DNA of 64,000 nt, taken from NCBI GenBank assembly GCA_913055805.1, contig CAJXLF010000002.1:248001-312000 (forward strand), given 5' to 3'. Shown here one piece after another: positions 16,574 through 18,436 of this stretch. The first letter of the stretch is position 1. Every line of letters begins with the position of its first letter. The notes beneath the pieces are model-generated. The model had not been told where the DNA came from and made no database searches. It saw only the letters and a list, made by a program, of their open reading frames with translations. The translations under genes were made by a program, and so were the position numbers. This stretch comes from an uncultured Salinisphaerales bacterium (GTDB lineage: Bacteria > Pseudomonadota > Gammaproteobacteria > Nevskiales > CAJXLF01).

Positions 16574-17515
16574 ATGATGAGCCGCGACCTGTTGCAAACC
16601 ATTGCCCAACGCACCCAACTGGCCGGGCATAACCGCCTGGCCCTGTTGCTGTTCCGTCTGGGCGAGCGTCAGCTTTTTGGCATCAACGTGTTCAAGGTGC
16701 AGGAAGTACTGCGCTGCCCGGAACTTTCCTGGGTGCCGCAGGCGCATCCGCTGATCATGGGACTGGCGGATATCCGCGGCCGCCACGTGCCGGTCATCGA
16801 CCTGCCCAAGGCGCTGAATCACGCACCGTTGGCGCCGGAAGAAAGCTATGTAGTCGTCACGGAATTCAACCGCACGGTCCAGGGTTTCCTGGTGAAGTCG
16901 GTAGACCGCATCGTGAATATTTCGGTCGAGGAAATTCATCCGCCGCCGCAGGTGACGGGCGACAAGTCGTACATGACGGCAATGACCCGTCTCAACAACG
17001 AGCTGATTGAAATTATCGATGTGGAACACGTGCTTGCCGATGTTGTCGGCCAGCCGCAACACGTTTCCGCCGCCCTGCTGCAATACGCACCCAAGCCCGG
17101 CGCCGACGGCAAACGCCCGCATGTACTGGTAGCGGACGACTCACGCACCGCACGCAATCAGATCAACGATGTACTCAAGCAGCTGGGCGTGGAAGCGACC
17201 CTGGTGGCGGACGGCCGCGCGGCCTTGAACGTGCTCAAGTCACTGGCCTCCACCGGCGAGCCAGTATCGAATCAGATCGCCATGGTGATCTCGGATATCG
17301 AGATGCCGGATATGGACGGCTACACCCTGACGACGGAAATCCGACGCGACCCCAAGCTGGCCGACCTCTACGTACTGCTGCACACTTCCCTGTCCGGCAT
17401 CTTCAACAACGCCATGGTGGCGCGTGTGGGCGCCAACGCCTTCGTGCCGAAGTACAGTCCGGATGAGCTGGCGAAGGTGGTGCTGGAGAGAATTCACGCT
17501 GCGGCTGCGGCCTGA
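16574..17515 (+). CDS. cheV: Chemotaxis coupling protein CheV (CheW domain plus receiver)
   Basis: Hybrid coupling protein of 313 residues linking chemoreceptors to CheA. Residues ~20-165 form a CheW-like domain (LFRLGERQLFGINVFKVQEV, LADIRGRHVPVIDLPKAL). Residues ~180-310 form a receiver domain with ADDSRTARNQI, the phospho-acceptor region ISDIEMPDMDGYTL and a late Lys in FVPKY. Phosphorylation of the receiver is thought to tune adaptation. In Pseudomonas cheV is followed by cheR before flgB; here no cheR follows, and the interval is filled by a palindromic element. Two adjacent ATGs exist; the first is used, with AAAGG just upstream. Confidence 0.95.
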   Translation: MMSRDLLQTIAQRTQLAGHNRLALLLFRLGERQLFGINVFKVQEVLRCPELSWVPQAHPLIMGLADIRGRHVPVIDLPKALNHAPLAPEESYVVVTEFNRTVQGFLVKSVDRIVNISVEEIHPPPQVTGDKSYMTAMTRLNNELIEIIDVEHVLADVVGQPQHVSAALLQYAPKPGADGKRPHVLVADDSRTARNQINDVLKQLGVEATLVADGRAALNVLKSLASTGEPVSNQIAMVISDIEMPDMDGYTLTTEIRRDPKLADLYVLLHTSLSGIFNNAMVARVGANAFVPKYSPDELAKVVLERIHAAAAA

Positions 17516-17543
17516 TTACCCCCTTAGCATCCTTTACGCCTGT

Positions 17544-17935
17544 ATAGCCGGGGCTGATGTCCGTCAGATCCGCTCGTGATGCATGGTACGGATCTATGCT
17601 GTACCTGTTCTCAAAGCGCCGTGAATACATCCCTGTACGTTGCTCACCCCATCCATGGGGCTCGCTCTTCGGGGCAGCCTACGGCTGACTCAATTTGTTC
17701 CAGACAAACTGTTCCGTCAGCGACGTCCATGTCGCTGACGGTTTGAGAACAGGCACAGCACAGCTCCTGGCTTCGACCTGAGTTCACCCACGACCCTGGG
17801 TGCCATCGTGCGTCGTAGACGGGGCGGTCTGGCTCTCTGTGAATGACCGTCGGCCGCATGGACGCGGCCGTCGAGCCCCCAGGGATGGGTTCACGGCGTG
17901 TCATGCACAGAGAGCCAGACATCAGCCCCGGCTAT
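17544..17935. repeat. 392-bp nested inverted-repeat element between cheV and flgB
   Basis: The ends are perfect 18-bp inverted repeats (17544-17561 and 17918-17935). Inside are further perfect pairs: 15 bp at 17827-17841/17906-17920, 12 bp at 17604-17615/17742-17753, 11 bp at 17714-17724/17731-17741 (6-nt loop), and hairpins AGATCCG/CGGATCT (17566-17572/17589-17595) and CCCCAT/ATGGGG (17647-17660). No convincing protein is encoded. It looks like a non-autonomous mobile or highly structured element. It fills most of the 528-nt gap between cheV and flgB; the only other feature there is the flgB sigma-54 promoter. Confidence 0.85.
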
Positions 17936-17994
17936 GCTTAAAGATATTCACGGCAGTTAGATAACAGGTTCAGGACGGCCTCAAAAAGGTCGTC

Positions 17995-18010
17995 TGGCAC
18001 AACCCTTGCC
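17995..18010 (+). promoter_or_regulatory. Sigma-54 promoter of the flgB operon
   Basis: TGGCACAACCCTTGCC is an excellent sigma-54 match (TGGCAC, N5, TTGC). The predicted start of transcription, near 18021, lies before the flgB ATG at 18044 and after an earlier in-frame ATG at 18014, which therefore cannot be the translation start. An imperfect dyad (GACGGCCT/AGGTCGTC) lies just upstream. Confidence 0.9.
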
Positions 18011-18043
18011 TCTATGGGCCACACTCCATTGGAGGCCCCGCAA

Positions 18044-18436
18044 ATGGCCGATCCAATCAGCAACAACTCGGGCGACAAACTTTTCGGCTTGCACGCCGAT
18101 GCCATGCGGCTGCATTCGCGCCGCCTGGAGCTTATCGCCAGCAATATCGCCAATGCCGATACGCCGGGTTTTCGTGCCAGGTCGCTGAACTTTGAGGCAG
18201 CACTGGCCGAGATCGCGAACGCTGACCAGAGTCAGAACATGCAACCTTCTACCCAGAATATCGGCGAAAGCCACGTGAACTTTAGAACCGCCCTGCAACC
18301 CAGCCTGGACGAAAACTCGGTAGATGTTTCCCAGGAACAGGCGGATTTCGCCGATGCCGCCCTGCGCTATCAGGCGAGCCTGCAGCTGGTTGAGGGCCGT
18401 ATGCGCTCGCTGCTGGCGGCGCTACGCGTGGAATAA
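18044..18436 (+). CDS. flgB: Flagellar basal-body rod protein FlgB
   Basis: Proximal rod protein of 130 residues. The rod-family N-terminal signature is present (HADAMRLHSRRLELIASNIA then NADTPGFRARSLNFEAAL), and the C-terminal helix ALRYQASLQLVEGRMRSLLA ends the protein. Start ATG 18044 is chosen because GGAGG lies 8 nt upstream and because the sigma-54 transcript would begin after the upstream ATG at 18014. It is the first gene of the flgBCDEF... operon. Confidence 0.96.
   Translation: MADPISNNSGDKLFGLHADAMRLHSRRLELIASNIANADTPGFRARSLNFEAALAEIANADQSQNMQPSTQNIGESHVNFRTALQPSLDENSVDVSQEQADFADAALRYQASLQLVEGRMRSLLAALRVE

Follow-up and report, generated by a model that had tools for sequence, protein, structure and literature searches.

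Two nested members of a gammaproteobacterial family of small palindromic insertion elements in the cheV-flgB gap of an uncultured Salinisphaerales bacterium

What is the 392-bp palindrome that fills the gap between cheV and flgB in this uncultured Salinisphaerales bacterium, and how did it come to be there? Within the window, our term for the whole 64,000-nucleotide stretch of DNA analysed, it spans 17544-17935, exactly as in the original prediction, which described a dense nested palindrome with perfect 18-bp terminal inverted repeats sitting where cheR is expected and replacing that gene. An arm search and shuffle comparisons bear out the description. The longest perfect inverted repeat of the region, 17544-17561 with 17918-17935, is 18 bp long versus a maximum of 12 bp across 500 mononucleotide shuffles, and further arms are nested at 17827-17847/17900-17920 (21 nt, 95%), 17590-17618/17739-17767 (29 nt, 86%), 17617-17635/17880-17898 (19 nt, 89%) and 17714-17724/17731-17741 (11 nt, perfect). 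Folding, a check proposed with the prediction, placed the DNA and RNA folds 9-10 standard deviations below shuffled sequences (z-scores of -9.65 with DNA parameters and -9.00 with RNA parameters), and no shuffle reached the real fold. The expected lack of a plausible ORF also held: no convincing gene lies inside the palindrome, where Pfam recognises nothing in the sole frame of at least 80 aa (92 aa, minus strand).

The replacement of cheR fell to comparison with relatives. In all 14 same-order genomes that have this cheV, the gene stands directly before flgB at short spacing, and the module described below is absent from the gap. The only cheR match in the bacterium's own genome lies at C2:316110, 51 kb from cheV, and this distant position is the same in several relatives. 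Because the 14 relatives lack the module and cheR is found 51 kb away, the elements are best regarded as insertions in this lineage, and the view that they replaced cheR is ruled out. In one relative (G014, locus L244) the same gap is occupied by a different palindromic repeat, TCATTCCCGCG...GGAATCCAG, in two inverted copies.

Element A nested in an arm of element B

The palindrome is two nested elements, with A inside an arm of B. Element B is 124 bp long, and its 36-bp arms are 35/36 complementary after removal of a 268-bp insert. Its left arm is split, such that 17544-17561 pairs with the outer half and 17827-17847 with the inner half of a continuous right arm at 17900-17935; joining 17544-17561 to 17830-17847 yields a 36-nt arm with 35 matches to the right arm. 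GTC stands on both sides of the insert, and both copies pair with the same GAC. Since the joined halves match at 35 of 36 positions and GTC marks both sides of the split, the 268-bp element A appears to have inserted into the left arm of B. The GTC is a putative 3-bp target-site duplication around A, short enough that it could be chance. Features of the locus are listed here, with R1 denoting the covariance model introduced in the next section.

16574-17515, plus strand: cheV (CheW domain and receiver; Pfam PF01584, PF00072), upstream flank
17544-17561, plus strand: element B, outer half of left arm (ATAGCCGGGGCTGATGTC), perfect complement of 17918-17935
17559-17561, no strand: GTC, first copy of the putative target-site duplication, pairing with GAC 17918-17920
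17562-17829, minus strand: element A, 268-bp insert including one GTC; removal restores the B arms to 35/36
17590-17618, no strand: element A, arm 1, 86% complementary to 17739-17767
17617-17642, minus strand: element A, module hairpin 1 (GUACAGGGAUGUAUUCACGGCG on the minus strand); R1 match 17669-17607 minus, 38.1 bits, E 3e-8
17647-17661, minus strand: element A, extra hairpin CCCC-ATGGAT-GGGG with GGA loop
17691-17711, minus strand: element A, extra hairpin CAGTTTGT-CTGGA-ACAAATTG with GGA loop
17714-17741, minus strand: element A, module hairpin 2 (GTCAGCGAC-ATGGAC-GTCGCTGAC), 11-bp perfect arms; R1 match 17743-17697 minus, 22.5 bits
17739-17767, no strand: element A, arm 2, complement of arm 1
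17827-17829, no strand: GTC, second copy of the putative target-site duplication, pairing with GAC 17918-17920
17830-17847, plus strand: element B, inner half of left arm, pairing with 17900-17917
17848-17872, plus strand: element B, module hairpin 2, loop C-ATGGAC-G with GGA at 17860-17862; R1 match 17845-17908 plus, 80.7 bits (a training-set copy)
17873-17898, plus strand: element B, GAGC, hairpin 1 (loop C-AGGGAT-G, GGA at 17883-17885) and TTCACGGCG (R1)
17900-17935, plus strand: element B, intact 36-nt right arm, 35/36 to the joined left arm
18014-18436, plus strand: flgB (flagellar rod; Pfam PF00460; NCBIfam TIGR01396 above cut-off), downstream flank

Reading this anatomy together with distant relatives, we infer the insertion and the order of events. 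Element B would have entered the cheV-flgB gap together with its arms, and element A would have followed by inserting into the left arm of B, probably duplicating 3 bp there.

A module shared across the Gammaproteobacteria

Elements A and B share a conserved module of ~50 nt that reads, on the GGA strand, CCGT, hairpin 2, GAGC, hairpin 1 and TTCACRGCG. The loop of hairpin 2 is CANGGAYG (also written CATGGAYG), and that of hairpin 1 is CANGGANG (also written CANGGATG). Further partial copies in the same genome share the module, while their outer arms differ between loci. A pattern scan of GTDB genomes found the module in at least 119 stretches, almost all from Gammaproteobacteria, with hosts including Xanthomonas, Stenotrophomonas, Microbulbifer, Alteromonas, Halomonas and Marinobacter. 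Covariance model R1 was built from 44 sequences chosen for a paired hairpin 2, with no such choice for the arms or hairpin 1. It gave 11 matches at E≤1 in the bacterium's own genome, nine of them below 1e-4, corresponding to about ten module copies, and it matched 44 of 229 sampled gammaproteobacterial genomes with up to 23 or more copies each. The search for further copies suggested at the outset was thus answered both in this genome and across the class. Compensatory changes between copies, the second sign that the original prediction had named, are also present: the 44-sequence alignment holds 206 double-changed cells versus 57.6 in shuffles, an excess that collapses when partner columns are slid. 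A second alignment of 112 model-retrieved copies, which leans towards the model, gave 188 versus 42.7.

Module copies were sought in phages, where none was found, and in plasmids, where there are two, both adjoining a dehalogenase gene. On plasmid pDCA of Ancylobacter novellus (L012:3001-3060), and likewise in Xanthobacter flavus, the module with its own arms adjoins a haloalkane dehalogenase gene; its presence on conjugative plasmids of Alphaproteobacteria hints that this stretch of pDCA is of gammaproteobacterial origin. Three further observations concern variant copies. In one genome (G106, L172-L191) the elements are present in many nearly identical copies, which resemble each other in outer sequence as well and keep fixed arms of about 30 bp; they seem to have spread in a recent burst. 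At L009:1480-1600 (G021), GGA hairpins seem, by eye, to sit at the T-loop position of a partial tRNA-like duplicate. Six loci in three genomes (L327, L326, L406, L408, L415 and L416; G268, G279 and G280) have hairpin 1 interrupted just past its GGA loop by an insert of ~40 bp, which looks like a further nested insertion and, in one case, reads as having inverted repeats of its own.

The closest known relative is a repeat of Yersinia. The printed sequence of RU-2, which is the same as YPAL, contains the module (PMC2759123), and YPAL has been described as a mobile repeat that inserts at dyad symmetry and duplicates 3-26 bp of its target (PMC2229807). As in YPAL/RU-2 (De Gregorio 2006; Delihas 2007), a GGA-loop hairpin is followed by GAGC, a second GGA-loop hairpin, TTTAC or TTCAC, and GGCG; the core lies in long imperfect arms, copies are intergenic, and both empty and filled sites occur. 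YPAL has short target duplications of variable length, to which the putative GTC duplication around A would correspond. Insertion near dyad symmetry and close to gene ends is likewise common to both, as seen in the placement of A in the arm of B and in the excess of convergent over divergent neighbours (30 versus 10; gene-context orientation counts are from a codon-based gene caller). Whereas YPAL/RU-2 is a ~168-bp repeat of one genus with arms common to its copies, element B is 124 bp long with locus-specific arms, and the present family spans the class and has its core inverted between orthologues. YPAL occurs in only 5 of 5426 E. coli genomes. The Rfam model RF02770 (Ysr224), which covers the RU-2 core, finds homologous copies with E-values between 6e-6 and 9e-5, at scores under its gathering threshold, and has no match in the window itself. 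The nested pair appears to represent a broader and new form of YPAL-like element.

Other classes of repeat fit less closely. Unlike a classical MITE of an insertion sequence, the elements have arms that differ between copies in a genome, and a non-exhaustive search found no parent insertion sequence. They resemble REP/BIME repeats with RAYT in being extragenic, palindromic and multi-copy, but their arms are much longer and the conserved sequence is another one; alignment showed that the GTAG foot of REP is not part of the conserved module. A replication-strand bias in orientation, as a sign of single-strand transposition of the IS200/REP type, was not seen (GC skew, Wilcoxon p 0.47). The paired GGA-loop hairpins recall TwoAYGGAY (RF01731) and CsrB/RsmB-type RNAs (clan CL00106), whose binding of CsrA is either proposed or known and which, unlike this repeated insertion element, are encoded as single genes; an Rfam search of the window at E≤1 matched neither CsrB nor TwoAYGGAY. 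A literature search for the motif sequence returned nothing relevant, and the open-access literature searched held no description of module inversion or of a link to CsrA.

Arms, empty sites and inversion of the module

The arms belong to the copy rather than to the family. Across 125 copies, arms measure about 28 nt with 90% complementarity; the two arms of one copy align with a median score of 42 versus 13 for arms crossed between loci, and the own-arm score exceeds the 99th percentile in 107 of the 125. Some genomes, such as G106, instead have near-identical high-copy forms with fixed arms.

Evolution in place was followed in one genus (17 genomes, ten with the module). A site filled in G243 and G268 is empty in several congeners, and the empty sites have no arms. 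These orthologous empty alleles, which the original prediction had named as the mark of mobility, join the ~10 copies in the genome, the matches in 44 of 229 gammaproteobacterial genomes and the insertion of one element into another in favour of its suggestion of a non-autonomous transposable element. Orthologous arms are 57-89% identical between species, yet 89-100% complementary within a copy. At four of nine orthologous filled loci the module is reversed between species, with identities of 0.78-0.97 when one module is inverted versus 0.49-0.59 when it is not. At locus 2, for example, G268 and G269 have one module direction while G243 and G279 have the opposite. One of the four cases, G280/G243, is weaker because the arms are only 57% identical, and this pair could represent independent insertions. 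Isolate pairs offered a single locus with both flanks at high identity, where module orientation is the same. The inversions were read from a single genus whose assemblies are drafts, largely of metagenome type; such assemblies can go wrong at short palindromes, and this source of error must be excluded.

Replication that switches template at a hairpin is known to invert the loop and to leave compensatory changes in the stem (Monttinen and Loytynoja 2022, PMC8794818). The elements resemble such hairpin mutations in their multi-base compensatory stem changes and loop inversion, although the loop inversions of that study, found in RNA genes, usually span 4 nt and do not exceed about 8 nt, whereas here a core of ~55 nt turns within arms of ~30 bp. 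Template switching between the arms would restore their complementarity and turn the module round, and would thus explain both the kept complementarity and the inversion. Selection on RNA structure could alternatively keep the arms complementary, but covariation of arms and stems is by itself no proof of such selection, because template switching also gives compensatory changes. Mobility and the mode of change are well supported. Overall, we assign a probability of roughly 0.86 to the reading as two nested small palindromic insertion elements that belong to a single gammaproteobacterial family with the YPAL/RU-2 core, template switching being the proposed mode of change.

GGA loops and other readings of the palindrome

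What template switching leaves unexplained is the loops. A CsrA/RsmA site consists of CANGGANG with a closing C-G pair, and, at the level of sequence, the module loop profile is that of a CsrA/RsmA site. In a search that left the loop unspecified, hairpin 2 carries GGA in 95 of 102 well-formed loops, and C-A-N-GGA-Y-G sits over 49 distinct stem tops. Among model-retrieved copies the GGA of both hairpins is nearly invariant: that of hairpin 1 varies in 0 of 111, while the N that follows it varies in 27 of 106, both positions being invariant in the training set. The two GGAs of element B are 20 nt apart, and extra hairpins of extended modules have GGA in seven and TCC in two of 13 cases, a small sample. 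Paired GGA-loop hairpins are a described CsrA-binding motif (PMC4333381), and CsrB and TwoAYGGAY belong to one Rfam clan. The module may tentatively be read as a functional RNA, whose pair of GGA-strand hairpins is predicted to bind a CsrA/RsmA dimer, in 3' untranslated regions or in transcripts of its own, and to tune mRNA stability or titrate CsrA, with selection keeping structure and loops.

Several results make this docking doubtful. Between tandem genes, the GGA strand is sense in 26 cases and antisense in 28, and this lack of strand preference is unlike what would be expected if a sense transcript mattered at the majority of loci. The Yersinia Ysr224 model represents the TCC strand, and GAGC and TTCAC are conserved yet unneeded for CsrA. 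csrA is found in 40 of 44 module genomes versus 194 of 229 overall, a comparison without power because csrA is too widespread. One genome (G234), rated 98% complete, has nine modules and no csrA match, which makes it either an assembly gap or a counter-example. In favour of the structured RNA locus in the original prediction are the structure and the GGA loops, both strongly conserved; strand-neutral placement and the compensatory changes that template switching also gives weigh on the other side. A stronger version is unlikely, namely that mobile, invertible elements docking CsrA/RsmA form a family across the whole class, with module direction setting which neighbouring transcript carries the paired GGA hairpins.

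It is improbable that the module inserts into the loops of pre-existing hairpins, the arms then being target sequence rather than element. Arms unrelated between loci, reported YPAL targets at or beside dyad symmetry (PMC2229807) and the insertion of A into the arm of B would suit such a process, but empty orthologous sites in several congeners have no arms, and a high-copy form in one genome has fixed ones. Lower still stands the idea that the palindrome, as an intrinsic terminator or an insulator, keeps transcription of cheV from running on into the flgB operon. The palindrome does lie between two co-directional genes, and the family's convergent excess is in keeping with termination, but relatives have no such element in the gap and antisense copies between tandem genes are as many as sense ones. 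A search for T-tract terminators (GC-rich hairpin and T run) found 0 sites in 17400-18100, which rules out an intrinsic terminator and leaves the regulatory insulator once suggested for this locus with no support. No promoter-like site was found in the cheV-flgB gap. A chance or relic palindrome of no further meaning is ruled out by the shuffle comparisons of folding and inverted-repeat length, the copies in this and other genomes, and the covariation.

As a nested pair of insertion elements, the palindrome may nonetheless affect its host. So stable a hairpin in the cheV-flgB transcript region would likely alter mRNA decay or read-through, and its GGA loops are a possible CsrA/RsmA docking site there. 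For the family, a repeat known from Yersinia is joined to relatives across the Gammaproteobacteria, and the elements show in what way a palindrome can change in sequence and still stay very long and near-perfect. They also warn against taking compensatory changes in elements of this kind as a sure sign of selection for an RNA. The inversion of the module between its arms is the most interesting result, and an invertible core with CsrA-like loops makes it possible to test directly if the Csr network is rewired by mobile repeats. If the stronger, class-wide version of the docking reading is true, the elements would constitute a slow, heritable post-transcriptional switch, spread by a transposition system.
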